Shown: in pieces, positions 38,034 through 54,141 of the stretch
Numbering within the stretch: position 1 is the stretch's first letter
Layout: every line of letters starts with the position of its first letter
From: Pseudomonadota bacterium
Lineage (GTDB): Bacteria > Pseudomonadota > Alphaproteobacteria > Reyranellales > Reyranellaceae
Direction of reading: 5' to 3'
Assembly (NCBI GenBank): GCA_018240685.1
Contig: JAFEFG010000003.1
Span: 1 to 64,000 of the forward strand
DNA: 64,000 nt
Notes under the pieces: model-generated
The model's input: only the letters and a program-made list of their open reading frames with translations
Told to the model about the DNA's origin: nothing
Database searches by the model: none
Program-made: the position numbers and the translations under genes

Positions 38034-38055
38034 CGGCGCGCACTCACGCCGCTAG
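38030..38055. repeat. Perfect 9-bp hairpin at the convergent ACT / racemase-like ends
   Basis: CTAGCGGCG (38030-38038) pairs with CGCCGCTAG (38047-38055). The ACT stop TAG is in the left arm and the minus-strand racemase-like stop (TCA, 38044-38046) is in the loop. No U-tract. Confidence 0.55.
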
Positions 38056-38721
38056 CCGCTCGACAATCGTGTCGATGTGCAGACGCGCCACGTCGACGGC
38101 AGGGAAGCCGGCAGTCTGTTCGTCGAACATGACGGCGAGGTCGGTGCCGGCAAGCAGGATCGCCTCCACGCCGTCGCGACGCTGCAGGTCGGCGGCGATG
38201 CGGCGCAGGCCTGCCGCGTCCGCGGCATCGGCCTTCTGGGTGTCGAGAATGGCCTGGTAGGCGCGGCCGATGAAGGCGAGCTCGTCGGGCTGCGGCTTCA
38301 CGATTTCCACCTCCTTGAGCTGGCCCCACAGGCCGCCTTCCATGGTGAAGACGGTGCCGAACAGCGCCACGCGCCTGAGCCTGCGGGCGCGAAGCTCGGC
38401 GGCGATCGAATCGACGATGTCGATGATCGGCAGGCGCGTGCGCTGGCGAATCTCGCCGATGCAGATATGGGGTGTCACCGCGGGCATGGCGACCGACTGG
38501 GCGCCGGCGCGGGCCAGCCGCTCCATGAAGCTCACGAGATAGTCCGCCAGTGCGTCCAGCCGGCCGGCGCGGATGAGGCTCTGGCCGTGCTCAACATCGG
38601 CATGGACGAACACGAGGTCGGGCGAGAAGCCGCGCGCCTTGCAGGCCGCCGCGATCCGCTCGTAGTAGTGAATCGTGGCGCCGACGCCCAGCCCGCCGAC
38701 GATGCCGACGCAGCTCGTCAT
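38044..38721 (-). CDS. Aspartate/glutamate racemase-like protein lacking both catalytic Cys
   Basis: A 225-aa protein with the Asp/Glu racemase superfamily fold: CVGIVGGLGVGATIHYYERI at the start, RVALFGTVFTMEGGLWGQL in the middle. The two sites that normally hold the catalytic cysteines read MPAVTPH instead of MPCNTxH and LAGTDLAVMF instead of xGCTExxLL, so both thiols are absent while the His is kept. Racemase activity is therefore unlikely. Its start overlaps the stop of the upstream GST gene by four bases. Confidence 0.8.
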   Translation of the reverse strand: MTSCVGIVGGLGVGATIHYYERIAAACKARGFSPDLVFVHADVEHGQSLIRAGRLDALADYLVSFMERLARAGAQSVAMPAVTPHICIGEIRQRTRLPIIDIVDSIAAELRARRLRRVALFGTVFTMEGGLWGQLKEVEIVKPQPDELAFIGRAYQAILDTQKADAADAAGLRRIAADLQRRDGVEAILLAGTDLAVMFDEQTAGFPAVDVARLHIDTIVERLAA

Positions 38722-39350
38722 GTCGGCCAGTTCCGCCGCCACACCGCGGCCAGTTCGGGCCGCTGGTCGGCGTGGCGGGCGATCGCGAACAGCCGCGGCG
38801 CTTCGATCTCGAACCAGCCGCGCTTGGGCCGCCAGCGCGTCATGACGGCGACATAGATATCGAGGGCGGAGAAGCGCTCGCCCAGGAACCACGGCGAGCC
38901 CGCCACGCCGTTGACCTGCCGCCACAGCCGTTGCGCGTAGGCGTCGGTGGCGGCGCGGAAGGGATCGCGCGCAGTGTTTACCGCAACGAAGCGCGCCGGG
39001 TCGTCGGCATAGGTGAAGGTCGGATAGATGTTGGCGACGATGAAGACCAGCCAGCGCAGGAACTTCGCGCGTTCCGGCGTGCCCGGTCCCGGCACCAGCG
39101 ACTCCTGACCGGTGATGTCGGCCAGCAGCAGCGTGATGGCCGCGCTCTCGCTCATCACTGTGCCATCGGGCAGCATGAGCGTCGGCACTTGCGCTAGCGG
39201 ATTGACCTTTTCCAGCTTGGCGCGCGCGTCGGACGACTTGAAGAGGTCGTCCACCGGCTCGAAGGTGAAGGGCAGACCATACCAGGCGAGCTGCGCCTCG
39301 ACGATGGCTGATCCCCAGCCGGCGCGGCCATAGAGTTTGTAGCCGGCCAT
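38718..39350 (-). CDS. Glutathione S-transferase family protein
   Basis: A 210-aa GST. The N-terminal thioredoxin-like domain includes AQLAWYGLPFTFEPVDD and VNPLAQVPTLMLPDGTVMSESAAITLLL with cis-Pro and the SES glutathione site; an alpha-helical C-terminal domain has FLGERFSALDIYVAVMTRW. Substrate unknown. It is 7 bp downstream of the HIBADH-like gene and overlaps the next gene by four bases, so the group is one transcription unit. Confidence 0.87.
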   Translation of the reverse strand: MAGYKLYGRAGWGSAIVEAQLAWYGLPFTFEPVDDLFKSSDARAKLEKVNPLAQVPTLMLPDGTVMSESAAITLLLADITGQESLVPGPGTPERAKFLRWLVFIVANIYPTFTYADDPARFVAVNTARDPFRAATDAYAQRLWRQVNGVAGSPWFLGERFSALDIYVAVMTRWRPKRGWFEIEAPRLFAIARHADQRPELAAVWRRNWPT

Positions 39351-39357
39351 GGCAGTG

Positions 39358-40227
39358 TCAGGGCTTCTGTAGCGGTTCGATCAGGCTCGACGTGTCCCAG
39401 CGTCCGCCGCCGCGCTCCTGGACGCGGGCATAGAACTGGTCGACCAGCGCCACTAGCGGCATCTGTGCCTTCCACCGCTTGCCCTCGCTCAGGCAGATGC
39501 CGAGATCCTTGCGCATCCAGTCGACGGCGAAGCCGTAGTCGAACTTGCCCGCCAGCATGTTCTGCCAGCGATTCTCCATCTGCCAGCTCTGCGCCGCGCC
39601 CTTGGAGATGGCGCCCAGCGCCTTCTCCATGTCGAGGCCGGCGCGCTGGCCGAGATTGAGCGCCTCGGCGAGGCCCTGGACGATGCCGGCAATGCACATC
39701 TGGTTCATCATCTTGGTGATCTGGCCCGTGCCTGGCGGCCCGATCAGCGTGATGGCCTTGGCATAGGAATCGGCCACGGGCTTTGCCTTGTCGAAGGCGG
39801 CCGGGTCGCCGCCGCACATCACGGTGAGCTGGCCGTTCTCCGCGCCGGCCTGGCCGCCGGAGACCGGCGCATCGATGAAGTCGATGCCGAGCTTCTTGCC
39901 CGTTGCGTGGAGTTCACGCGCCACGTCGGCGGAGGCGGTGGTGTTGTCGAAGAAGATCGCGCCCTTGCCCATGCCGGCGAAGGCGCCGTTCTCGCCCAGC
40001 ACGACCGAGCGCAGGTCGTCGTCGTTGCCGACGCAGCAGAAGACAATCTCGCGACCTGCGGCCGCTTCCTTGGGGGTCTTGGCGACCGTGCCCTTGTGCT
40101 TCTTGGTCCAGGCCTCGGCTTTGGCGAAGGTCCGGTTGTAAACCACGACCTCGTGGCCCTTGGCAGCGAGATGCCCCGCCATCGGGAAGCCCATCACGCC
40201 CAGACCCAGAAACGCCACCTTGGCCAT
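39358..40227 (-). CDS. 3-hydroxyisobutyrate dehydrogenase / tartronate semialdehyde reductase-like
   Basis: A 289-aa beta-hydroxyacid dehydrogenase. The N-terminal Rossmann motif is VAFLGLGVMGFPMAGHLAAKGHEVVVYNR, the substrate motif DAPVSGGQAGAENGQL follows, and the catalytic Lys is in GPPGTGQITKMMNQ. The family oxidises or reduces 3-hydroxyisobutyrate, glycerate and related short hydroxy acids with NAD(P). The specific substrate is not clear; GST and racemase-like genes follow in the same unit. Confidence 0.9.
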   Translation of the reverse strand: MAKVAFLGLGVMGFPMAGHLAAKGHEVVVYNRTFAKAEAWTKKHKGTVAKTPKEAAAGREIVFCCVGNDDDLRSVVLGENGAFAGMGKGAIFFDNTTASADVARELHATGKKLGIDFIDAPVSGGQAGAENGQLTVMCGGDPAAFDKAKPVADSYAKAITLIGPPGTGQITKMMNQMCIAGIVQGLAEALNLGQRAGLDMEKALGAISKGAAQSWQMENRWQNMLAGKFDYGFAVDWMRKDLGICLSEGKRWKAQMPLVALVDQFYARVQERGGGRWDTSSLIEPLQKP

Positions 40228-40342: not shown

Positions 40343-40864
40343 TCAGTTGGCGTCGATCCCCGTCTTCTCGCGCTGGGGTGGCCAGACCGGCTTGCCGTCC
40401 GCGACGGCGATGCTGAAGCGTGCGCCGATGCCAAGGCGGTTGTCCAGATAGCGGATGCGCGTCGGCCGGAAGACATGGGCGTGGGCGCGAAAGGCGGTCC
40501 GAACGGCGCCGACCGGGTTGGCCATGAGGTCGCGGGCGAAAGGGAATTTCTCGAGATAGGTCGCGAGCGCCCGGGCCTTGTCGCCGACCGTCTCCGCGAG
40601 GCCGGCCATCCCTTCCATCTGCAGACCGCGGATGTCCCGCCAGGTCGCCACGGGTGCGTGCACCGTGACGGCACAGGCCGGATTGGCGGCGAGGTTGCGG
40701 CAGTGCCGCGAATCGAGCGACGAAAAGAAGACGAGGTCGAAGCCGGACGCGGCGAAGTAGACGTCGCTTGCCCACGGGACGTTGTCGGCGCAGGTCGCCA
40801 GCGTCATGGGGGCGACCTCCTTGAACAGGGCACCCGCCGCCGCCTCGAATTCCTCAGGTGTCAC
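40343..40864 (-). CDS. PNPOx-like (pyridoxamine 5'-phosphate oxidase family) FMN-binding protein
   Basis: A 173-aa split-barrel protein of the PNPOx-like flavin family (VAPMTLATCADNVPWASDVYFAASGFDLVFFSSLDSRHCRNLAANPACAVTVH, broken here by family variation). The FMN-site pattern and the HCRNL strand fit. These proteins bind FMN, F420 or haem. Start GTG 40864 overlaps the UbiX stop by eleven bases, so it is translated with the prenyl-FMN genes and could serve the flavin chemistry or reduction there. Enzymatic role not assigned. Confidence 0.75.
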   Translation of the reverse strand: MTPEEFEAAAGALFKEVAPMTLATCADNVPWASDVYFAASGFDLVFFSSLDSRHCRNLAANPACAVTVHAPVATWRDIRGLQMEGMAGLAETVGDKARALATYLEKFPFARDLMANPVGAVRTAFRAHAHVFRPTRIRYLDNRLGIGARFSIAVADGKPVWPPQREKTGIDAN

Positions 40865-41423
40865 CGCCGCTCCAGCGCTTGAACAGGCTGTGCTCGATCT
40901 CGAACTGGTCAAGGACCTTGCCGACCGTCTGGTCGACGACGTCCATGATGGTCTTCGGGCCGTGATAGAAGGACGGCGCCGGCGGCAGGATGACACCGCC
41001 CATCTCCGCGACGGCCGTCATGTGCCGCAGATGGCCGAGATGGAGCGGGGTCTCGCGCGGTACGAGGACGAGCTTGCGGCGTTCCTTGAGCGTCACGTCG
41101 GCGGCGCGGGCGAGGAGGTTGTCGTTCAGGGACAGGGCGATCTGGGCCAGGCTCTTCATCGAGCAGGGAACCACCGCCATGCCGGCAACCCGGAACGAAC
41201 CGCTCGAGACCGAGGCGGCGAGATTGTCGTGGGCGTGGACGACATCGGCCAGTGCCCTGACCGATTCGACGCTGCGATCGGTCTCCAGGCGCAAGGTCAC
41301 TTCGGCGCCCTTGCTCAGGATCAAGTGGGTCTCCACGTCGCGGATGTCCTTGAGCACTTCAAGCAGGCGAATGCCGAAGATGACTCCGCTCGATCCGGAC
41401 AAACCCACAATCAGACGCTTCAT
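40854..41423 (-). CDS. UbiX-like flavin prenyltransferase
   Basis: A 189-aa UbiX. It has the family Gly/Ser-rich start RLIVGLSGSSGVIFGIRLLEVL, a VVPCSMKSLAQIALSLNDNLLARAADVTLKE element, LVLVPRETPLHLGHLRHM and the C-terminal VVDQTVGKVLDQFEIEHS. It makes prenylated FMN from FMN and dimethylallyl (mono- or di-)phosphate, the cofactor used by UbiD decarboxylases. Three UbiD paralogues lie immediately upstream on the same strand, which identifies this as their dedicated prenyltransferase. Confidence 0.93.
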   Translation of the reverse strand: MKRLIVGLSGSSGVIFGIRLLEVLKDIRDVETHLILSKGAEVTLRLETDRSVESVRALADVVHAHDNLAASVSSGSFRVAGMAVVPCSMKSLAQIALSLNDNLLARAADVTLKERRKLVLVPRETPLHLGHLRHMTAVAEMGGVILPPAPSFYHGPKTIMDVVDQTVGKVLDQFEIEHSLFKRWSGGDT

Positions 41424-41453: not shown

Positions 41454-43070
41454 CTAGCTTTCTGCTGCATCCTTGGCCCCTTGCCGATAGACGAAGCACG
41501 AATCGGCGATCGTATAGGGATATTCGGGACGCTGGTCGGCCACGCGGCCGAGCCTGGGGCGCAAGGTGCCGAAGGCCCGATAGATGTTCGGGTAGGGCTG
41601 GCCATGGAACTTCCGGAGGATGTCCTCCCAGGTGCGGGGGGCTTCCTTGATGTAGGCCTCCATTGCCTGTTCGAGCGCCGGCTCCTCCAGAGTCGGAGCG
41701 TTCGCGGGCGGCACGCCGAACGGCTCGGTCACGGAGCACTTCATGAAACTGACTCGATCGATGTTGCCGACGATGGGGATGGTGCAGTCGAAGCCTGCCT
41801 TCGGCGTGTGCACAGGTGGATGGTTGGTCTGGGCCAGCGGATCGAGGGGGAGGATGTTCAGATCCGGGATGATGACCGTGTCGATCTGCGGGTTGTATCG
41901 CCAGGCCATCGCCCATTTCACCTGATCGTCGTCGAAGATGTCGATATCCTCATCGAAGACATAGGCGAGCTTCGGGAACCACTGCCGCGAGCAGGTCAGC
42001 ATGAGGCCAAGCGCCTGCTTGGCGTCGCCGCCGCCCACGACCTTGAGCCTCGCATAGACGATGTTGTGGCTACCGCCATAGGGCGCGTGGACGTCGAGGA
42101 CGTGCAGGCCGGCCAGCTTCAGCGCGCTGTAGATGTCCGATTCGATCGTCGGGTTGAAGATCATGAGATCGGTGCGGCCAGGATGCAGGCCGCCGATCGT
42201 GGCGTACTGGTAGATCGCATTCCTGCGATAGGTGATGCAGTCGACGACGAAGCGGCAGTTCTTGGGCAGGCCGGAGCCGTAGGTGCCGGTATATTCGCCA
42301 TAGGGACCCTCGTCGTAGATCCAGCCCTCGGACGTCATCATGCGGCCTTCGAGGATGATCTCGGCGTTGGCGGGAACCGTCAGGTCGTTGGTCTCGCACT
42401 TCACGACCTTCGCCGGCTCGCCGTAGAAGCCGCCCAGGATGTCCCAGTCGTCCTCGCCCGCGAACGAATACATCGATGCGACCTTGTCCAGCGTGGGGCC
42501 GCCGATGACCACGGCGACCGGCATGTCCTTGCCGGCCTTCTGGTACTTCTTGGCATGGATGCGCGCGTTGTGGCTGTCGTTCCTCATGTCGATGTTGGTC
42601 TCGTTCCGAGAACGATACATGAAGCGGTAGATGCCCCAGTTGATGAGGCCGGTCTCAAGATCCCGCGAGACGACGTTGGTGTCCTGGATGAACGCGTGGC
42701 CGTCGTATTTGTGATACAGGAACAGCGGGAACCGCGTGAGGTCGACGTCCTTGCCCTTCAGGATCACCTCCTTGCAGGGCGCGGTCTCGACCAGGACGGG
42801 CTTCTCCCGCTTGAGGTTGACCCGCGAGATGGCCTTGCCCAGGTCGCGCGGATCGCATTTGAGGGCGTGCGCATATTGCTCGCGCGTGCTGTAGGCGCCG
42901 GCGAGGAACATGAATTCGCTGTCGATGACCTTCTCGACCAGGATCGCCTTGTTGGGTGAGGCTTCCATCAGGGCCGGAAGCTCGTCCACGCGCTTCGGCT
43001 CCTTGATGCGCGTCAGTTGGCCGATGGCCTCCAGTTCCTCGACGAATGAGGTCATGTCCTGCTGCGGCAT
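41454..43070 (-). CDS. UbiD-family decarboxylase, member 1 (538 aa)
   Basis: A prenyl-FMN-dependent UbiD enzyme. It has the acidic catalytic motif DEGPYGEYTGTYG, INWGIYRFMYRSRN with the Arg that holds the prenyl-FMN phosphate, and the central MPVAVVIGGPTLDKVAS. UbiD enzymes decarboxylate (or carboxylate) unsaturated and aromatic acids. The closest paralogues in this cluster (members 2 and 3) resemble each other more than this one. Its gene is preceded by a 16-bp perfect hairpin that separates it from member 2. Substrate unknown. Confidence 0.9.
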   Translation of the reverse strand: MPQQDMTSFVEELEAIGQLTRIKEPKRVDELPALMEASPNKAILVEKVIDSEFMFLAGAYSTREQYAHALKCDPRDLGKAISRVNLKREKPVLVETAPCKEVILKGKDVDLTRFPLFLYHKYDGHAFIQDTNVVSRDLETGLINWGIYRFMYRSRNETNIDMRNDSHNARIHAKKYQKAGKDMPVAVVIGGPTLDKVASMYSFAGEDDWDILGGFYGEPAKVVKCETNDLTVPANAEIILEGRMMTSEGWIYDEGPYGEYTGTYGSGLPKNCRFVVDCITYRRNAIYQYATIGGLHPGRTDLMIFNPTIESDIYSALKLAGLHVLDVHAPYGGSHNIVYARLKVVGGGDAKQALGLMLTCSRQWFPKLAYVFDEDIDIFDDDQVKWAMAWRYNPQIDTVIIPDLNILPLDPLAQTNHPPVHTPKAGFDCTIPIVGNIDRVSFMKCSVTEPFGVPPANAPTLEEPALEQAMEAYIKEAPRTWEDILRKFHGQPYPNIYRAFGTLRPRLGRVADQRPEYPYTIADSCFVYRQGAKDAAES

Positions 43071-43165: not shown

Positions 43166-44929
43166 CTATTCGTCGGTGTCGAAGCGATCCTTCAGCGGGA
43201 AGCCGGGCGGATAGTCGACGTCGCCGTTCTTCTCATTCCAGCGCACCACGCCCTCGCGCGGTACGCCGGCCGTCGGACCGCCCACGGCATCGGTATCGAC
43301 CAGGCGCGCCGTCCGCAGGCCGTTGATCAGCCAGTCGCCGTTGACGGCGCGATCGGCGCACTTCGTCCATTCCTCGCACCAGTCGCCGAGGCTGTAGCCG
43401 TACCACTTCCAGCGCGGCGTGACCGGTGGCAGGCCGGCCTTGTCCCACAGGACCTTGGCTTCCTCCATGATCTCGCGCTTCGGCAGTGCCACCGGCGGCA
43501 TGTCGTAGTGGAGGGTCGCGTCGATCATGATCTTGGCTTCCCATTCGCGATCGCGCAGCTTCGGCGCATGGCCATTGGCCTGATGGTCCTCGATCTTTAC
43601 GGATTTCATCAGGTCGGTGCGGTAGGCGATGGCCCACAGCACCTCCTCGACATTGTTCGGATTGATGTCCTCGTCGACCGCGACGGTGATCTTGCCCACC
43701 GAGCGCATGAAGGTGGTGGCGCCCTCCAGCGCCCGCCAGATCTCGGTCTTGGGCGTGTTCCGCTGCAGGACGATGACCGTGAACCTCGAAACGCCGATCA
43801 TTGGGCCGTGCAGGGCGACGTCCTTGACCTGCCGGATATACAGCGTGTTCTTCAGATGGTTGAGCATGATCGCGCTGTAGTTGAGCTGCTTGATGACGCC
43901 CGACTCGGACGGCGCCATCTGCGAGATCATCGAGCTCAGGATCGCCTTCTTGCGCCGCGTGATGGCGGTGACGGTGATCGAATGGTTGTATTCCTCGACC
44001 GACATGTTGCCATAGGACTCGCCGAACGGCGCTTCCATCTCGAGCTTGCTGGGATCGAGCCAGCCCTCGATGACGATCTGCGCGTCGGCCGGGACCATAA
44101 GCGGGATGGTCTTGCACCTGACCTTGCGGTAGGGCGCGCCGGCCAGGGCGCCGGCCACGTCCATGTCGTCGAGATACTCGGGCACCTTCTGCGGTCCCAC
44201 GACCTGCAGGCTGGGTGGTGCGCCGGCGATCAGCGCCACCGGCATCATTTCGCCGCGCTCCTTGTACTTCGCCCAGTTCTGGTGGGCGCCGCCATTGGTC
44301 TGGATCAGCCACATGCCTGTCATGCGGTCGGACGCCTTCAGGCTGCAGCGGTTCTGGCTGATGTTCTGGATGTTCGTGTCCGGATTGAGCGTGACGAACA
44401 GGCCGGCGGAGAAATACGGCGCCGTGTCCCAGCCGGCCGTGTTGTTCGGGACCGGCAGGGTGTCGAGGCCCTTGCCCGCGCCGCCCTTCAGGTCGTCTCC
44501 CGTCAGCACGACTTCATGGACCGGCGCTTCCTCCGATGGAATCTCGACAGCGGGGATCGGATTCTGAAAGGCATGCGTCCACTTGTCGAAGATCTTCTGC
44601 GACAGGTCCGACAGGCCTTCGCCCTTGTAGTCGATGCCCATGGACATCGCATAGATCTCGGGCGATCCGGCCGTGCCGCCGACCTGCACGTCGCAATCCC
44701 CCTTGTACTTGCGTCCCTTGGCATCGGTGACGTTCGTGAACAGGAAGGCCCGCTTCGGGTTGCTGTTGAGCACGGTGCCGACGTCGCCGACATAGCCCCA
44801 GCGGACGAAGGCATGCAGATGCTTGTCCTTGTTGATCTCCTGGTCGATCGTCCACAGGAGATCGGCTTTCTTGAGCTTCTCCAGATGGTCGTTGAGATCG
44901 TCGTACTTGCGTTGAAATCCCTTCTGCAC
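43166..44929 (-). CDS. UbiD-family decarboxylase, member 2 (587 aa)
   Basis: A UbiD paralogue that shares with member 3 the N-terminal YDDLNDHLEKLKKADLLWTID region, the variant acidic motif EAPFGESYGNMSVEEYN and the C-terminal YGYSLGDWCEEWTKCADRA. The prenyl-FMN-contacting Arg region is NIQNISQNRCSLKASDR. It is longer than ordinary UbiD by an N-terminal and C-terminal extension. It probably forms part of a heteromeric or multi-substrate decarboxylase with the neighbours. Substrate unknown. Confidence 0.88.
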   Translation of the reverse strand: MQKGFQRKYDDLNDHLEKLKKADLLWTIDQEINKDKHLHAFVRWGYVGDVGTVLNSNPKRAFLFTNVTDAKGRKYKGDCDVQVGGTAGSPEIYAMSMGIDYKGEGLSDLSQKIFDKWTHAFQNPIPAVEIPSEEAPVHEVVLTGDDLKGGAGKGLDTLPVPNNTAGWDTAPYFSAGLFVTLNPDTNIQNISQNRCSLKASDRMTGMWLIQTNGGAHQNWAKYKERGEMMPVALIAGAPPSLQVVGPQKVPEYLDDMDVAGALAGAPYRKVRCKTIPLMVPADAQIVIEGWLDPSKLEMEAPFGESYGNMSVEEYNHSITVTAITRRKKAILSSMISQMAPSESGVIKQLNYSAIMLNHLKNTLYIRQVKDVALHGPMIGVSRFTVIVLQRNTPKTEIWRALEGATTFMRSVGKITVAVDEDINPNNVEEVLWAIAYRTDLMKSVKIEDHQANGHAPKLRDREWEAKIMIDATLHYDMPPVALPKREIMEEAKVLWDKAGLPPVTPRWKWYGYSLGDWCEEWTKCADRAVNGDWLINGLRTARLVDTDAVGGPTAGVPREGVVRWNEKNGDVDYPPGFPLKDRFDTDE

Positions 44930-45025: not shown

Positions 45026-46660
45026 CTATTTGTCCTCGTAGGGAATGCCGCGCGCGGGATCCTGCGGCTGGGCGGTCGTGCTCATGTGCGCCGCCGAGCG
45101 GCGGCCGTTGGCGATCCAGTCGCCGCGCGCGGCGCGGGCCGCACAAGCGTCCCAGGTCTCGGACCAGTCGCCCAACGAATACCCGCTCCAGGGCGACTGG
45201 GGTCGGAGCGGCGGAAGCTTGAGGTCCTCCCAGATCGTGCGCGCCCGCTCCATGTATTCCTTCTTCGGCAGCGCGACGGGCGGATAATCCCCCTTTGCGG
45301 TGGCGTCGATCAGCATGGTCGCGTCGATCTCGGACCCCTTGAGCGCGGGGCCATGGCCCTTCCCTCGGTTGGGGACGACATGGGCGTCCGTCAGCGGATT
45401 GGAGCGGTAGGCGAGCGCCCACAGGACATGGTCGGTGTCCTCGGGGTCGATGTCCTCGTCCAGAGCGATGCAGAACTTGCCGATCGCGGGCGTGAGCGAG
45501 GCGGTTCCCATCAGGGCCCGCCAGATCTCCGATTTCGGCGTGCCCTTCTTCATGATGAGGAAGACGAACGGCCTGAGGTTGGTCAGGGGCTCGTGCATCG
45601 AGACGCGGATGACGCCCTTGATGTTGAGGGCGTCGCGCAGGTGCGAGAGGTACAGTGGCTCGTAGGCCACCTTCTTGATGACGCTCGACTCACTGGGGGT
45701 GACCTGCGAGATGATCGAGGTGATCGTGTAGGAGGCGCGGCGCGTGATCGCCGTCACGCGCATTGAGAAATTGTACTCCTCCAGCGCCATGTAGCCGTGC
45801 GATTCGCCGAACGGACCTTCGGGTTCGAGCCGATCGGTGTCGATCAAGCCCTCGATGACGACCTGGGACTCCGCCGGAACCAGGAGATCGACCGTCTTTG
45901 CCTTCACGACGTTGATCGGGCATCCGGCAAGCCCGCCGGCCACGGTGAGTTCGTCGCAATCGAGCGGCATCTTCTGGGGACCGACGAAGGCCACGATCGG
46001 CGGCGCGCCCAGCACCACCGCCACCGGCATCGGCTGGCCGCGCTTCTTGTACTTGAGCCAGTGCACGCCGCCGCCGGCGAGCGTCGAGCGTTCCATCATC
46101 ACGGCCAGACGGTCCGGCGCCTTCAGGTTGCCGCGATAGAGGCCCATGTTCTGGATGCCGTTGTCGGGGTCGCGCGTGAACCAGAGCGCCGCGGTGAGAT
46201 AGGGCGCCGTGTCGTAGCCGGGCGTCGAGATCGGAATGGGCAGGCCATCCAGCCCGTGACCCGGTTTTGACAGTTGCTCGCCGGTCTCGATGACCTCCTG
46301 GCAAGGTGCCGTCGCCACCTGCTTCGGACTGATGGGGCGTGCGATCGCGTCGAGCCAGGCCTTGCCGATTTCGGCTTCAGGCCTCTTCATGCCCAAGGCG
46401 TAGATCTGGCGACTGCCGGCCAAGGCGCCGATGACGACGCGGGCGCCGGGATAGTGTCGTCCGGTGGCGTCGACGATATTCGTGAACAGGAAGGCCTTGC
46501 GATCCGATTCCGCGATGCCGCCCCTGTATTGCCAGCGGACCAGTGGATGCATCTCGGTGTCTTTGTCGATGGCGCGGTCGATCGAGTAGAGCAGCCCGCG
46601 GGCCTTCAGCTTGTCGAGATGCGCATCAATATCGTCATATGCGCGCGACTCTTCCCCCAT
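45026..46660 (-). CDS. UbiD-family decarboxylase, member 3 (544 aa), first gene of the unit
   Basis: A UbiD paralogue similar in layout to member 2: YDDIDAHLDKLKARGLLYSID at the N-terminus, motif PEGPFGESHGYMALEEYN, IQNMGLYRGNLKAPDR with the Arg, and YSLGDWSETWDACAARAARGDW at the end. It is the promoter-proximal gene: a perfect FNR/FixK box lies 90 bp upstream of its ATG with class II spacing to a predicted -10, so the cluster is likely induced at low oxygen. A GGGGGGAG ribosome-binding site precedes the ATG. Confidence 0.88.
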   Translation of the reverse strand: MGEESRAYDDIDAHLDKLKARGLLYSIDRAIDKDTEMHPLVRWQYRGGIAESDRKAFLFTNIVDATGRHYPGARVVIGALAGSRQIYALGMKRPEAEIGKAWLDAIARPISPKQVATAPCQEVIETGEQLSKPGHGLDGLPIPISTPGYDTAPYLTAALWFTRDPDNGIQNMGLYRGNLKAPDRLAVMMERSTLAGGGVHWLKYKKRGQPMPVAVVLGAPPIVAFVGPQKMPLDCDELTVAGGLAGCPINVVKAKTVDLLVPAESQVVIEGLIDTDRLEPEGPFGESHGYMALEEYNFSMRVTAITRRASYTITSIISQVTPSESSVIKKVAYEPLYLSHLRDALNIKGVIRVSMHEPLTNLRPFVFLIMKKGTPKSEIWRALMGTASLTPAIGKFCIALDEDIDPEDTDHVLWALAYRSNPLTDAHVVPNRGKGHGPALKGSEIDATMLIDATAKGDYPPVALPKKEYMERARTIWEDLKLPPLRPQSPWSGYSLGDWSETWDACAARAARGDWIANGRRSAAHMSTTAQPQDPARGIPYEDK

Positions 46661-46721
46661 CGGACACTCCCCCCAAGGCGACCATTTCGGCGCAAACTAA
46701 TCTTGCACTCATTATTCAATA

Positions 46722-46727
46722 ACCATA
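46722..46727 (-). promoter_or_regulatory. Predicted -10 box of the UbiD operon
   Basis: On the minus strand TATGGT (46727-46722) places a start site near 46715, which is 41.5 bases from the centre of the FNR box at 46756.5. That is the class II FNR geometry. Confidence 0.5.
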
Positions 46728-46728
46728 G

Positions 46729-46747
46729 CCACACGCCGCGCGTGTGG
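46729..46747. promoter_or_regulatory. Perfect 8-3-8 palindrome in the UbiD promoter
   Basis: CCACACGC at 46729-46736 and GCGTGTGG at 46740-46747 form a perfect dyad, next to the FNR box and in the space where a -35 would lie. Could be an operator for a second regulator, or a hairpin ending the upstream protease transcript. Confidence 0.5.
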
Positions 46748-46749
46748 AA

Positions 46750-46763
46750 TTGATTCAAATCAA
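46750..46763 (-). promoter_or_regulatory. Perfect FNR/FixK/Anr box upstream of the UbiD cluster
   Basis: TTGATTCAAATCAA matches the consensus TTGAT-N4-ATCAA at every defined position; it is a 90-bp distance upstream of the UbiD member 3 ATG. It implies control by an FNR/FixK-type regulator not encoded in this window. Confidence 0.8.
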
Positions 46764-49055: not shown

Positions 49056-49925
49056 TCAGCGCCCGCAGCGCGAAGCAAGCAATATCGTGACCGCAAGCAG
49101 ATCGGCGCAGCCGCCGGCCGACAGGTTGCGGGCGATGAAGTCGCGATGCAGCCCTTTGGCTGTCGCCTGCCAGCCGGTGTCGTGGCAGCCGCCGCGGGAC
49201 AGAAACGCCCGGGCGGCCTTCCGTACGAACTCGCCGGCCTGAACGCCGCCCCGGTACAACACGGTCGTGTCCTCGACGGCTTCCATCAGCGTGAACAGCG
49301 TCTGAATGGCGGCCGCGTTGGTATCCAGTCCTGCCCACAACGCCTTCCGATAGGCGGGAAGCGCCACCTCGAATACGTTGGGAAATGCGAGGGCGGCTTC
49401 CCGCCGCGCACCGTCTTGGCCCGTCGCCCGGCGGACCACTGCCCCGTGACTGTCCCCGGCATGGCCTTCCGCAGCATGTGCCTCGAGAGCCGCGCCCCAT
49501 TCTCGCTTCAATGTCCGGCGAACGGCATCGGCGGAAATGTCCGCGTGCGGCGTGGCCGTGCGCGCGATCGCGGCCACCATCAGCCCCATCGAGAAGATGG
49601 CACCGCGATGCGTATTGACGCCGCCGGTAGCAGCCAGCATGCGTCGCTCCGCCATGATCCCCAGTGGCTTCAACACGGTGTCGAACGGCTTCGCTGCGCG
49701 TCCGGCGATGGCCATCGCCTCGAACGGTTCGGCGAGCGAGGCCGCCGACCGGCACATGAGAGCGAAGTCCATGTCGGCATGAGCGCCGGAATCGACCGGG
49801 CTGACAAGGCCAGGCTTGGGGTAGGCGGAAAGCTCGTCGTGCAATGCCTTGACTGCGGCCGAGGCCAGGGCGGCATCCGCGCTCGCAGCGGGAGCGGCAA
49901 CGTCGAAGGTGGTGTCGGGGCTCAT
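49056..49925 (-). CDS. mdcB: Triphosphoribosyl-dephospho-CoA synthase MdcB
   Basis: A 289-aa CitG/MdcB-type enzyme that makes the 2'-(5''-triphosphoribosyl)-3'-dephospho-CoA precursor of the malonate decarboxylase prosthetic group from dephospho-CoA and ATP. Motifs are SAYPKPGLVSPVDSGAHADMDFALM, KPLGIMAERRMLAATGGVNTHRGAIFSMG and the Gly/Asp-rich VLYRGG near the C-terminus. The start ATG overlaps the mdcG stop (ATGA). It is the last gene of the cluster. Confidence 0.92.
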   Translation of the reverse strand: MSPDTTFDVAAPAASADAALASAAVKALHDELSAYPKPGLVSPVDSGAHADMDFALMCRSAASLAEPFEAMAIAGRAAKPFDTVLKPLGIMAERRMLAATGGVNTHRGAIFSMGLMVAAIARTATPHADISADAVRRTLKREWGAALEAHAAEGHAGDSHGAVVRRATGQDGARREAALAFPNVFEVALPAYRKALWAGLDTNAAAIQTLFTLMEAVEDTTVLYRGGVQAGEFVRKAARAFLSRGGCHDTGWQATAKGLHRDFIARNLSAGGCADLLAVTILLASRCGR

Positions 49926-50557
49926 GGCGCGAGCGCCGTACGCGGGACGAGCCGCAGGGTATCGATGGATTTCAGGACGATTTCCGGCTTGCCCTGATGA
50001 TATTCGCGCCAATGCACTTCACCCCGGCCGGCAAGGGACAATTCGCCATCAATTCGAAAGGCCAGCATCGGCTCCTCGCGGGCGAGCATCGCCGCTGCGC
50101 GACCTGCCTCGGCGGAGGACGCGACATCGATCACGACATCGAGGTCTGACGCGTCGTGCACATGCGGTTCGTCCGTGAGCGCCTGCCACATCCAGCTCCC
50201 ATAGATGCGGACAACGAGGCCGGCCTCCGAGGCAGCGGCCTGCAGGCGCATGAAGGATGGCTTGTTTGTTCGGGCAGCCGCACACCGAGCCACCGCGTCG
50301 AGCGGCGGGGGGCGCGTGCTGTCGACAATGTGTCCTGGAATGGTCTGGGCAGCGACCCGCCGCGGCCGCAGGCCGGGATGGCGGAGATCGGTGGTGCAGA
50401 AGCCGAGGCCGATCTCGGCGCCCTCGCCACGGCGCCGGGTGACGACGAACGGTCGTCCCTGGGCGTGCCACGCCACGGCGCGGGCACGATCATCCGTATC
50501 GAAAGTCTCCGGCGGTTCGGAGAGCCAGACCAGGCAGTGGCGGCGAAGCGGCGTCAT
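49922..50557 (-). CDS. mdcG: Phosphoribosyl-dephospho-CoA transferase MdcG
   Basis: A 211-aa nucleotidyltransferase-like MdcG that attaches the prosthetic group to apo-MdcC. The motif GSWMWQALT...DASDLDVVIDV has the Gly-Ser and Asp-x-Asp of the nucleotidyltransferase fold. It is coupled by four-base overlaps to mdcE upstream and mdcB downstream. Order A-C-D-E-G-B differs slightly from the better-known Klebsiella order but the set of parts is the same. Confidence 0.92.
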   Translation of the reverse strand: MTPLRRHCLVWLSEPPETFDTDDRARAVAWHAQGRPFVVTRRRGEGAEIGLGFCTTDLRHPGLRPRRVAAQTIPGHIVDSTRPPPLDAVARCAAARTNKPSFMRLQAAASEAGLVVRIYGSWMWQALTDEPHVHDASDLDVVIDVASSAEAGRAAAMLAREEPMLAFRIDGELSLAGRGEVHWREYHQGKPEIVLKSIDTLRLVPRTALAP

Positions 50558-51288
50558 CGCGCCGATTCGGTCAGCACCTTCTTGCGGATGTCGAGGGCGA
50601 GCTTGCGGCCGCCGCGTTTCTTGCCCAGCTCCGCGCGATTGTCCTCGGTCGAGGCCGTCGCAATCGCCTTCTCGAGCTTGGCGGCGACGCCGTCATCGAG
50701 CGTCCACACGGCCTCGACGCCGCCCAGAAGCGCGAAGGGATGCGCTCCGAATTCCAGGGACGGCATGGTCTTCGAAAGCTTGCGCAGCACCGGGACGGGA
50801 ATTTTGGTGACGGCCGACATCGCCTCGACCGGCATCAGTCCGACGCGGGCGGAATCGAGGGCATAGATGCGATCGCCGAACATGCCGTAGCAGATGAACG
50901 CGCCGCCCACCGCCTGGCCAGTGGCGACCGTGATGAGCTTATGCCCGTTGCGGCGCGCGAGTTCGAGACAGTTCAGCAGATGGCCGAAATAACTGGCGAG
51001 CCCCAGCATCTCGGCAACGCGATTGGGCTCCTGACCGGCACTGTCGACCAGCATGACGATCGGCATCTTGGGGTGATGCTCGATGCAATCGATGACCTGT
51101 GCCGCCAGATGCAGGGCGGCGGCGTTGTCGACATAGGTTCCATTGCAGGTGCCGATGACGCAGACCCTGGTGGCCCCGACGGAGGCGTAGCCGGTCACCA
51201 GGGACTTCTCGACCGCGATACCCTTGGCGGACGTGCCGAAGAGCTGGGAGAGCAGGGCGCGGGAGGACAGCTTCTTCATTGGTCTCAC
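50554..51288 (-). CDS. mdcE: Malonate decarboxylase gamma subunit MdcE
   Basis: A 244-aa carboxyltransferase-fold subunit. With MdcD it forms the decarboxylase that converts malonyl-S-ACP to acetyl-S-ACP and CO2. Typical segments are LHLAAQVIDCIEHHPKMPIVMLVDSAGQEPNRVAEML, VATGQAVGGAFICYGMFGDRIYAL, and MSAVTKIPVPVLRKLSKTMPSLEFG. The GTG at 51288 overlaps the mdcD stop by four bases as elsewhere in this operon; ATG 51279 is the other candidate. Confidence 0.93.
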   Translation of the reverse strand: MRPMKKLSSRALLSQLFGTSAKGIAVEKSLVTGYASVGATRVCVIGTCNGTYVDNAAALHLAAQVIDCIEHHPKMPIVMLVDSAGQEPNRVAEMLGLASYFGHLLNCLELARRNGHKLITVATGQAVGGAFICYGMFGDRIYALDSARVGLMPVEAMSAVTKIPVPVLRKLSKTMPSLEFGAHPFALLGGVEAVWTLDDGVAAKLEKAIATASTEDNRAELGKKRGGRKLALDIRKKVLTESAR

Positions 51289-52163
51289 TTCTCGCGCTTC
51301 GCCATGGCTGCAAACTCCGGTCCGGAGGCGAGCGACGCGGCCTCGATGTCGCGCACGCCCATGCCCTTCCAGACTGCGTCCGCATCTTCTGTCTGGCCGA
51401 ACCGCTTCAGGCGCTTGGCGAGCTCGGCCTGGCGCGCCTTGACCGCCTTGAGCGACACCGCGCTCGACTTGCCGAGCAGCTTGCTGATCGCCTCCCGGAT
51501 CGCACCGGCATCGTCAAGGACCAGTGAATCGGCATCGCCGAGCAGGTACTTGGTCTTGCCGCCACTCGTCTTCCACACCAGCGCCCGGTTCGACGAGTCG
51601 TAGGCCTTCTTGCCCATCCACTTCTCGATGACGATGGGACCGGAAATGCCTAGCCGGCCATGCTCGGTCATCACCCTGAAGTCGCAGCAGGTCGACAGGA
51701 TGCCCATGCCGCCATAGGCGCCGATGTCGGAACAGATGACGGCGATGGTCGGCACTTTCTTGGCGCGGCATTCGAATATGGCGCGCATGGTCTCGGCGAT
51801 GGCGATCTCGCCGGCCGATCCTTCATGCAGGCGCACGCCGCCGCTTTCGACGATCACGATGCAGGGCGTACGATCTCGCGCGGCGGCCTTGAACAGGCCC
51901 GTGAGTTTGGCGCCATGGATCTCGCCCACGGCACCGCCCACGAACTGGCCGACCTGGGCGGCGAGATAGACCTTGCGGCCGCCGATCTTCGCGTGGCCGA
52001 TCACGACACCGTCATCGAACGACACCGGGATGCCGAGCTGGGCGAGATAGGGGCTCGTGATGCGTTCCGGCGGCGGCAGCAGTTCGTCGAAGCTGCCGGG
52101 ATCGACCAGGGCTGCGATGCGCTGCCGGGCGGTCTGTTCGTGGAAGAGGGGGCCGCGCGTCAT
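51285..52163 (-). CDS. mdcD: Malonate decarboxylase beta subunit MdcD
   Basis: A 292-aa crotonase/carboxyltransferase-fold subunit of malonate decarboxylase. Conserved pieces are SYLAQLGIPVSFDDG-like sequence, AAQVGQFVGGAVGEIHGAKLTGLF, VIVESGGVRLHEGSAGEIAIAET and the oxyanion-hole SDIGAYGGMGILSTCCDFRVMTEHGRLGISGP (broken here by natural variation). It joins mdcC upstream and mdcE downstream by four-base overlaps. Confidence 0.94.
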   Translation of the reverse strand: MTRGPLFHEQTARQRIAALVDPGSFDELLPPPERITSPYLAQLGIPVSFDDGVVIGHAKIGGRKVYLAAQVGQFVGGAVGEIHGAKLTGLFKAAARDRTPCIVIVESGGVRLHEGSAGEIAIAETMRAIFECRAKKVPTIAVICSDIGAYGGMGILSTCCDFRVMTEHGRLGISGPIVIEKWMGKKAYDSSNRALVWKTSGGKTKYLLGDADSLVLDDAGAIREAISKLLGKSSAVSLKAVKARQAELAKRLKRFGQTEDADAVWKGMGVRDIEAASLASGPEFAAMAKREK

Positions 52164-52480
52164 TTGTCGCCTCCGGTCAGATGATCGTAGGCCTGACGGA
52201 GGCGCAGGTTGACGAGCACTGGCGGCGCTCCCTGGTCATGGATGGTCACCTTGGTGCCGCCAGCCGGATAATGGGTGGCGAAGTCCGCGAGAGCGGCCAG
52301 CCAGGACGACTTGTAGCCGGGGATCGAGGTCTCGACGTGGCATTCCATGGTGCCCGAGGCGCCGGCGCGTTCCAGCAGCACTTCGAGGTTGCCCGAGCCC
52401 ACGACCCCTGCCAGTGCCCACGGCTTTGCAGTCCTGGCCTTGAGCGGCTTGGACGGAAAGGCCTTTGTGAACTTTTCCAT
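52160..52480 (-). CDS. mdcC: Malonate decarboxylase acyl-carrier protein MdcC (delta subunit)
   Basis: A 106-aa acyl-carrier subunit. The prosthetic-group Ser sits in VVGSGNLEVLLE (Ser29), the same Gly-Ser-Gly-x-Leu-Glu motif as citrate lyase CitD. It carries malonyl and acetyl thioesters on a 2'-(5''-phosphoribosyl)-3'-dephospho-CoA group added by MdcB and MdcG. The gene starts 11 bp after mdcA and overlaps mdcD. Length is in the normal range. Confidence 0.92.
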   Translation of the reverse strand: MEKFTKAFPSKPLKARTAKPWALAGVVGSGNLEVLLERAGASGTMECHVETSIPGYKSSWLAALADFATHYPAGGTKVTIHDQGAPPVLVNLRLRQAYDHLTGGDK

Positions 52481-52491
52481 ATTGCGTGGTC

Positions 52492-54141
52492 CTACCAGTC
52501 GACGAATTGCGGCGGTGGGTCGTAGAGACCGTTCGACCACCGCACCAGGCCCTTGATGTCCTGCGCGGCGAGCAGGCTGCGGCTCGCCTCGCGTGGCGAC
52601 ACGCCGACATCCTCGGGGAACTGCACGATGCCCCGGCGCCGCAGCTCCTCGGTGTCGCGCTTCCTGCGCTTGAGGCCGACGGGCGTGTAGCCGGCGACCG
52701 AACGGATGGCGGCCTGGCGCTCGGCGATCGACCGGCAGGCGGCCAGATTGGCGATGCCTTCCTCGGTGACGATATGCGTGACGTCGTCGCCGTAGATCAT
52801 CACCGGCGTTACACCATGGAGCGCCTTGCGGATGCTGGGATCCTGCGCGTCGAGCTCCTCGACGAAGGTCGGAACGCGGCCGGCCTGGAACGTCTCGACC
52901 ATCTGCACGACCAGCTTGCGGCCCGGCGGCGAGCCCGGCCCGGGATTGGCTTCCGCACCGACCTTCAGCCACGCCTCGGTGGGATGGCGGCGGCCGGCCG
53001 GCTGGCAGCCCATGTTGGGCGCACCGCCGAAGCCCGTGATGCGGTTCTTCGAGACCGTCGACGAGTTGCCGTTGATGTCGACCTGCAGCGACGCGCCGAT
53101 GAACATGTCGATGCCGTAGTGACCGGCAAGCTGGCCCATAGCGCGGTTGGAATGGAAGCTGCCGTCGCGGCCGGTGAAGAACACGTCGGAATGAGCCGCC
53201 GTGTAGCGTTCCATGCCGACCTCGCCACCGACGGCGAAGACGCTTTCGACCCAGCCCGATTCGATCGCCGGGATCATGGTCGGCAGCGGGTTGACCATCC
53301 AGTACTTGCAGATCTTGCCCTTGAGGCCGAGGCGCTCGCCGTAGGTCGGCAGCAGCAGCTCGATGGCGGCGGTATTGAAGCCGACGCCGTGGTTCAGCGA
53401 CTGCACGCCATACTTCTCGTAGATGCCGCGCAGCGCGACCATCGCCATCAGCACCTGCACGTCGGTGATGGCGGCGGGATCGCGCGTGAACAGCGCCTGC
53501 AGGTGCATCGGATACGGTGCCTGCACCACCAGGTCGACCTGGTCGGCCGGAATGTCGATGCGCGGCAGCGTGTCGACGATCTCGTTGACCTGCGCGAACA
53601 CGATACCGTCGGAGAAGGCGGTCGGCTCGACGATGGCCGGCGTTTCCTCGGTGTTGGCGGCGAGGAAAAGGTTGCCCTTGCGATCGGCCTGCGCGGCCGC
53701 GATCAGCGCCACGCGCGGCGTCAGATCGATGTAATAGCGGGCGTAGAGTTCGTTGTAGGTATGGATCGCGCCAACGGGGAACTTCTTCGCCTTCACCAGA
53801 TCTGCGACGGCAGTGCCCTGGGGGCCGGCGTAACAGAAGTCGACCTGCCGGATCATGCCCTTCTTGAAGAGCTGAATATGGGCCGGCAGCGTGATGCACG
53901 ACATCACGAGATGAATGTCGCGGAGATCCTTGCGTTCAAGCGAGGCAAGCTGGCTGGCGAGGAAGTCGGCCTGCTTCTGATTGTCGCCTTCGAGGCAGAG
54001 GATGTCGCCTGGTTCGATGATCCGCTTGAGAACCTGGGGGACATTGTCCGGGGAAACGAATTTCCCCCTAGCAAGCCTACCCACCTTTTGGAGACGTTTT
54101 GCCTTGTTCTGACGGCGCAAGGCCAAATTCGCAGCGGTCAT
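52492..54141 (-). CDS. mdcA: Malonate decarboxylase alpha subunit MdcA (acetyl-S-ACP:malonate ACP transferase)
   Basis: A 549-aa CoA-transferase-fold protein that exchanges acetyl for malonyl on MdcC. It begins with MTAANLALRRQNKAKRLQKVGRLARGKFVSPDNVPQVLKRII-like sequence, has DICLEGDNQKQADFLA-type elements and EVGMERYTAAHSDVFFTGRDGSFHSNRAMGQLAGHYGIDMFIGASLQVD (segments as read in the translation). It is the first gene of the cluster; the 260-bp region upstream shows no clear operator. mdcH and a transporter gene are not nearby. Confidence 0.93.
   Translation of the reverse strand: MTAANLALRRQNKAKRLQKVGRLARGKFVSPDNVPQVLKRIIEPGDILCLEGDNQKQADFLASQLASLERKDLRDIHLVMSCITLPAHIQLFKKGMIRQVDFCYAGPQGTAVADLVKAKKFPVGAIHTYNELYARYYIDLTPRVALIAAAQADRKGNLFLAANTEETPAIVEPTAFSDGIVFAQVNEIVDTLPRIDIPADQVDLVVQAPYPMHLQALFTRDPAAITDVQVLMAMVALRGIYEKYGVQSLNHGVGFNTAAIELLLPTYGERLGLKGKICKYWMVNPLPTMIPAIESGWVESVFAVGGEVGMERYTAAHSDVFFTGRDGSFHSNRAMGQLAGHYGIDMFIGASLQVDINGNSSTVSKNRITGFGGAPNMGCQPAGRRHPTEAWLKVGAEANPGPGSPPGRKLVVQMVETFQAGRVPTFVEELDAQDPSIRKALHGVTPVMIYGDDVTHIVTEEGIANLAACRSIAERQAAIRSVAGYTPVGLKRRKRDTEELRRRGIVQFPEDVGVSPREASRSLLAAQDIKGLVRWSNGLYDPPPQFVDW

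Follow-up and report, generated by a model that had tools for sequence, protein, structure and literature searches.

A probable FixK-type class II promoter in front of a multi-UbiD gene cluster of Reyranella and its close relatives

Results

The UbiD cluster and its upstream region

The window, by which we mean the whole stretch of 64,000 nt that was analysed, carries on its minus strand a cluster in which three genes for UbiD-type decarboxylases are joined by one each for a UbiX flavin prenyltransferase and a PPOX-fold protein. The first gene, UbiD1 (45026-46660, minus strand; 544 aa), matches PF01977 with E = 1.4e-48 and falls in the TIGR00148 family, under the cut-off of that model. It is followed on the same strand by UbiD2 (43166-44929; 587 aa; PF01977, 8.8e-44), UbiD3 (41454-43070; 538 aa; PF01977, 1.5e-53; TIGR00148 over cut-off), the UbiX-family flavin prenyltransferase (40854-41423; 189 aa; NF004685, 273 bits versus a cut-off of 188) and the PPOX-fold, pyridoxamine oxidase-like protein (40343-40864; PF01243, 1.3e-11 with a longer start), whose gene adjoins UbiX in related loci too. 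UbiD domains encoded next to a UbiX flavin prenyltransferase identify the locus as a UbiD/UbiX prenyl-FMN system. The codon-based gene caller is rough in this region, missing UbiD3 and favouring an antisense ORF there. Assignment to the UbiD of ubiquinone biosynthesis (equivalog NF008175) was rejected, UbiD1-3 scoring 117, 115 and 116 bits versus a cut-off of 788, as was assignment to phenylphosphate carboxylase alpha or beta (TIGR02723/TIGR02724), for which the scores reached at most 146.6/116.5 bits versus cut-offs of 564.6/468.95.

Downstream on the same strand (38044-40227) lie HIBADH-like, GST-like and Asp/Glu racemase-like genes, which may be cotranscribed with the cluster; their membership of the operon is uncertain, since none had a match at 1e-15 beside UbiD1 in the best 80 related loci. 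On the other side, the minus strand at 49056-54141 carries a malonate decarboxylase cluster (CitG-like, MdcE, carboxyltransferase, MdcD-type acyl carrier, alpha subunit).

In front of UbiD1, the minus strand reads TTGATTTGAATCAA at 46750-46763 (TTGATTCAAATCAA in forward-strand letters), an exact FNR/FixK-type box centred at 46756.5, ~96 bp from the UbiD1 ATG (46660). It is the sole exact match to TTGAT-N4-ATCAA in the window and is intergenic, lying in the 179-bp gap between the end of the upstream minus-strand ORF (46840) and that ATG. Boxes with at most one mismatch occur four times in the window versus 0.53 expected from shuffles, a count reached by 1 of 100 shuffles. After a spacer of exactly 22 bp (46728-46749) comes the candidate -10 element TATGGT (46722-46727, minus strand; ACCATA on the plus strand), which agrees with TATAAT at only 4 of 6 positions. 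This is the geometry of a class II (-41.5) promoter, from which a transcription start is predicted at 46715 (minus strand), 7 bp past the hexamer and 41.5 bp from the box centre. No -35-like hexamer is found at the usual distance from TATGGT, a place taken instead by the box end and the GC-rich spacer, and other -10-like hexamers are available in the AT-rich DNA past the box. The initial annotation had described a perfect box centred at 46756.5, with TATGGT at 46727-46722 and a start near 46715 at a distance of 41.5 bp; the box is borne out and the geometry confirmed, the start being a prediction.

FNR/FixK-type boxes in the genome

We counted 28 perfect boxes in the whole genome, 21 intergenic and 7 inside genes by a rough gene call. 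The intergenic share of the examined 327 kb is ~10%, giving a binomial tail of 3e-16 for 21 of 28. These intergenic counts are approximate owing to the rough gene caller, and the stretches examined were those surrounding perfect boxes, Crp/Fnr genes or ccoN. The genes next to intergenic boxes (universal stress, hemerythrin, flavin reductase, cation ATPase, SPFH, transport and unassigned) are compatible with a microoxic regulon.

Spacing was then scored over 47 box-to-gene orientations, comprising intergenic perfect and one-mismatch boxes with the window's own included, after repeated contexts had been collapsed. Over spacings of 8-44 bp, TANNNT was hit 11 times; the 22-bp spacing accounts for 5 of these hits and the 21-bp spacing for 2. 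A mirrored-pattern control for the perfect boxes of the genome gave 0 matches, which we do not take as a rate, because the mirrored word contains TAG and may be under-represented on that account. The cbb3 oxidase genes are classic FixK targets, and ccoN (733 bits) is preceded by TTGACTCATATCAA, then 22 bp, then TAATGT. This layout is the strongest internal control for the UbiD1 promoter.

Conservation of the promoter in relatives

A search for UbiD1 in the window's own genome and those of 100 relatives gave a match in 7 of 101; within the family, UbiD1 is found in 6 of 75 genomes, all of one genus, Reyranella. All six Reyranella orthologues are preceded by a box with at most one mismatch, exactly 22 bp and a TANNNT hexamer (TATGGT, TACCGT and, four times, TAGCTT), the box lying 89-109 bp from the start codon. 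In a box-anchored comparison of these promoters with the window, 9 of 10 positions of the box arms are identical, while the flanks have diverged to 14-23 identical positions out of 60 upstream and 5-8 out of 30 downstream (17-38%). Among the six, the G030 site, TTGATCTGGAACAA, departs from the strict TTGA-N6-TCAA form. When each 200-bp promoter was shuffled 4000 times with dinucleotides preserved, a box with at most one mismatch arose in 0.1-0.9% of shuffles, and no shuffle of any of the six produced a box with TANNNT at 22 bp. Near copies make up three of the six promoters, which reduces them to about four independent lineages. Together with ccoN, the six orthologues support the class II FNR/FixK reading that the initial annotation had offered. 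That the box stands above chance level is a matter of its conservation and spacing in the compared sequences and not of the perfect match itself, which is not telling because the genome holds 28 such boxes.

The spacer of the window also contains a GC-rich inverted repeat at 46729-46747, CCACACGC-CGC-GCGTGTGG, which might be the operator of a second regulator. As a conserved operator it was rejected, only G011 being partly alike among the six Reyranella orthologues.

Outside the genus, the G068 UbiD1 (57% identical) has no TTGA-N6-TCAA within 420 bp upstream. We also examined relatives from a named genome collection, taking the best 80 of at least 566 confirmed ones, of which 77 had enough upstream DNA (L088, L093 and L133, with less than 150 bp, were left out). 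Within a 220-bp upstream stretch, the box is present in 4 of 4 Reyranella/Enhydrobacter promoters versus 1 of 73 from other relatives; on the same relatives, 19 control palindromes with permuted arms matched 0-2 promoters versus 5 for the real box. Deep conservation of the box across the UbiD1 family was rejected on this 1 of 73 among the best relatives. The sole outside box (L099) stands ~211 bp out, with no TANNNT at 22 bp, and a one-mismatch box in Methylocapsa (L084) lies ~221 bp out, beyond the 220-bp stretch, and hence was not counted.

Crp/Fnr-type regulators

The ccoN contig also holds hemN, usp and fixO, together with genes for FixL, with haem-PAS and kinase parts (1e-98 to a solved FixL chain), and FixJ (3e-63 to a solved FixJ chain). 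Two 3' ends of fixK-type genes with an ETVSR helix stand at contig ends, at the start of C168 (L017) and the end of C91 (L018). At least their 99 first bases are identical and their neighbours differ; because identical ends stand before different neighbours, the genome probably has two fixK copies, both broken by assembly at duplicated genes. Two further FNR/FixK-like proteins are encoded on C199 (L019, ORF near 976-1764) and C41 (L020, 985-1767); both have GAVSR in the recognition helix where FNR has ETISR, and a perfect FNR/FixK box lies directly before each of the two genes. The initial annotation had named the absence of an FNR/FixK-type regulator from the genome as an outcome that would speak against its reading; FixL, FixJ, the fixK 3' ends and the two FNR/FixK-like proteins exclude it.

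PF13545 matches 12 times in the genome, 6 of them over cut-off, and the FixK model has a match at 1e-15 in 39 of 61 relatives' genomes, none over the curated cut-off. No N-terminal cysteine cluster is present in the C41 and C199 proteins, nor are there N-terminal cysteines in the FixK-type ORFs of the relatives G030 and G031; the fixK copies of the window's own genome are cut by contig ends before this region.

The cluster in other hosts

The closest UbiD1 relatives, among the matches listed, and a tree place the host in or next to Reyranella. Outside this genus, again among the matches listed, the closest UbiD1 are those of Chromatiaceae bins (79%), Solidesulfovibrio (74%) and Methylocapsa (72%), whose loci also have UbiD2 (81-90%) and UbiX nearby. 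In the tree, built from 24 hand-chosen loci of the best 80 plus the window and G008, the Reyranella genes stand in a clade with those of Chromatiaceae and Solidesulfovibrio; the wider forks have 99-100% support, and Reyranella as a single group just 76/67. Because this clade joins such hosts, the tree suggests that the module has moved between hosts far apart in the phylogeny, provided that the bins are free of foreign contigs.

The promoter appears to differ by host, because a TetR-family gene lies upstream of the Solidesulfovibrio copies (L082:682-1401; L083:5126-5728), whose promoter carries not the box but a palindrome, CTAACCAACC(A/G)GTTAG (L082 about 3480, L083 about 5907), and because the Chromatiaceae bins have no box at UbiD1, which is not the first gene there.

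Discussion

We propose, with a probability of about 0.83, that UbiD1 is preceded by a class II promoter at which a FixK/FNR-type activator under the FixLJ cascade would drive microoxic expression of the UbiD-UbiX genes. When oxygen is scarce, FixL, a haem sensor, would act with its partner FixJ to raise FixK; a FixK-type dimer would bind the box at -41.5, in place of a -35 element, and recruit RNA polymerase to TATGGT, with transcription starting near 46715. The three prenyl-FMN decarboxylases, the prenyl-FMN synthase and the PPOX-fold protein would then be made mainly in microoxic cells. We infer how FixL leads to FixK, and that FixK binds, by analogy with the nosR, bad and bzd systems of proteobacteria, considered below; the acting Crp/Fnr member, the start site and the dependence on oxygen are likewise predictions.

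The initial annotation had inferred low-oxygen expression, in keeping with the oxygen sensitivity of prenyl-FMN, a rationale that agrees with published work. On exposure to O2, prFMNH2 is readily converted into an inactive radical (PMC10865409), although an oxidant is in turn required to mature the cofactor to its active iminium form (PMC13040415).

The box could be functional and yet chiefly serve a different member of the Crp/Fnr family, the signal then being not simply oxygen sensed by FixLJ. Candidates are the two GAVSR paralogues, a [4Fe-4S] FNR missed in the draft, and a nitric-oxide-responsive member. We hold this to be unlikely, though a reading to be taken seriously: both paralogues exist with a perfect box before each gene, PF13545 matches 12 times in the genome (6 over cut-off), and members of the superfamily have nearly one box in common, as described in the part of PMC4999443 dealing with their sites. 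However, FixL, FixJ and fixK-type genes are all present and the cbb3 genes have the same layout as UbiD1, while the GAVSR paralogues are without the N-terminal cysteine cluster and without the recognition-helix Glu, so that their site preference may differ.

We consider it improbable that the box is a repressor site overlapping the promoter, or that it acts in class I fashion, at another distance and with transcription starting elsewhere. The start at 46715 is indeed predicted from geometry, the AT-rich DNA past the box offers alternative -10-like hexamers, and FixK-type proteins can repress, as in the negative autoregulation of fixK2 mentioned in PMC9104804; but the 22-bp spacing to TANNNT recurs in 6 of 6 orthologues and is also the genome-wide peak, and the usual place of a -35 element before TATGGT has no matching hexamer. 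We give very little credence to the box being a chance match or a relic, with some other element, for instance a TetR-type operator or the inverted repeat of the spacer, driving the cluster. Perfect boxes do occur within genes (7 of 28), and the Solidesulfovibrio version of the cluster does combine an upstream TetR-family gene with a promoter palindrome; against this, box and spacing were kept while their flanks diverged, and the spacer repeat is unconserved apart from the partial likeness in G011. A FixK/FNR-type class II promoter remains our preferred reading.

Both ubiD and anaerobic aromatic pathways are already known to come under FNR-type control. One of the closest cases is ubiD of Rhodobacter sphaeroides (RSP_0467-8), for which the sections on this gene report an FnrL box, TTGATgtagGTCAA, with activation (PMC2908626) and CrpK ChIP-seq (PMC4263372). 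Like UbiD1, it is an alphaproteobacterial ubiD with an FNR-family box, there under direct control; unlike the window, which has three UbiD genes, none over the ubiquinone-UbiD cut-off, its ubiD is annotated as a ubiquinone enzyme. In R. capsulatus the box is kept before ubiD (TTGATCAATATCAA), the portion of that study presenting the RNA-seq reporting no ubiD change (PMC4634722), and ubiD-ubiX form one operon, according to the passage on these genes in PMC10626278. The PN promoter (bzd) of Azoarcus sp. CIB, as summarised in PMC6678401, is activated in an anaerobic aromatic pathway by the FNR-family protein AcpR, centred at -41.5; unlike the window cluster, bzd encodes a benzoyl-CoA pathway with the specific repressor BzdR added. 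For the window cluster, no specific regulator emerged from an unsystematic look. Rhodopseudomonas palustris, from the account in PMC6191541, has a FixLJ-FixK-AadR cascade leading to badDEFGAB in anaerobic aromatic catabolism, but this acts via AadR on benzoyl-CoA reductase, whereas the window cluster encodes UbiD enzymes. At nosR of Bradyrhizobium diazoefficiens, the FixK2 box lies 40.5 bp from the mapped start and its deletion abolishes expression, as given in the nosR section of PMC5582078; that promoter differs in having a respiratory target, a measured start and an imperfect box (TTGATCCAGCGCAA), the UbiD1 start being predicted.

What is newer is the multi-UbiD cluster, together with the promoter change that it appears to have undergone from host to host. 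No FixK-controlled multi-UbiD cluster was found in the open-access papers covered, and among their full texts UbiD, FNR and FixK occur together in the R. sphaeroides study only. The promoter is of an ordinary kind before an unusual gene cluster, and its interpretation draws on good comparative evidence from sequence.

Prenyl-FMN enzymes carboxylate or decarboxylate aromatic compounds without oxygen as a substrate. The conserved FixK-type promoter would mean that this cluster is used in microoxic growth, which could guide cultures aimed at finding the substrate, and it would extend likely direct FNR/FixK control past the ubiquinone ubiD. We further suggest, tentatively and at less than even odds, that a UbiD1-UbiD2-(UbiD3)-UbiX-PPOX module has passed between anaerobes and oxygen-exposed alphaproteobacteria and was rewired to a FixK class II promoter in Reyranella. 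The module would be an uncharacterised multi-UbiD (de)carboxylase set of anaerobes such as Solidesulfovibrio and purple sulfur bacteria, under TetR-type control in the Solidesulfovibrio copy, with the FixK class II promoter acquired on entering Reyranella. The same genes behind a FixK-type versus a TetR-type promoter would offer a natural comparison of how a pathway is refitted to oxygen on transfer; if true, the rewiring would be a traceable case of the oxygen-labile prenyl-FMN chemistry of an anaerobe placed under a microoxic switch and so fitted to an oxygen-exposed host.

In Enhydrobacter aerosaccus ATCC 27094 (L076), which shares the promoter, the cluster includes a fourth UbiD gene (L076:8800-10407), 68% identical to UbiD3 and absent from the window. 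In the Lamprocystis bin, a PrpF-family gene (PF04303; L081:3630-4799) is embedded in the UbiD cluster and may point to the substrate, and in a Reyranella bin the cluster is followed by a gene for a protocatechuate 3,4-dioxygenase-type beta subunit (L079:12508-13215), which hints at aromatic acids.
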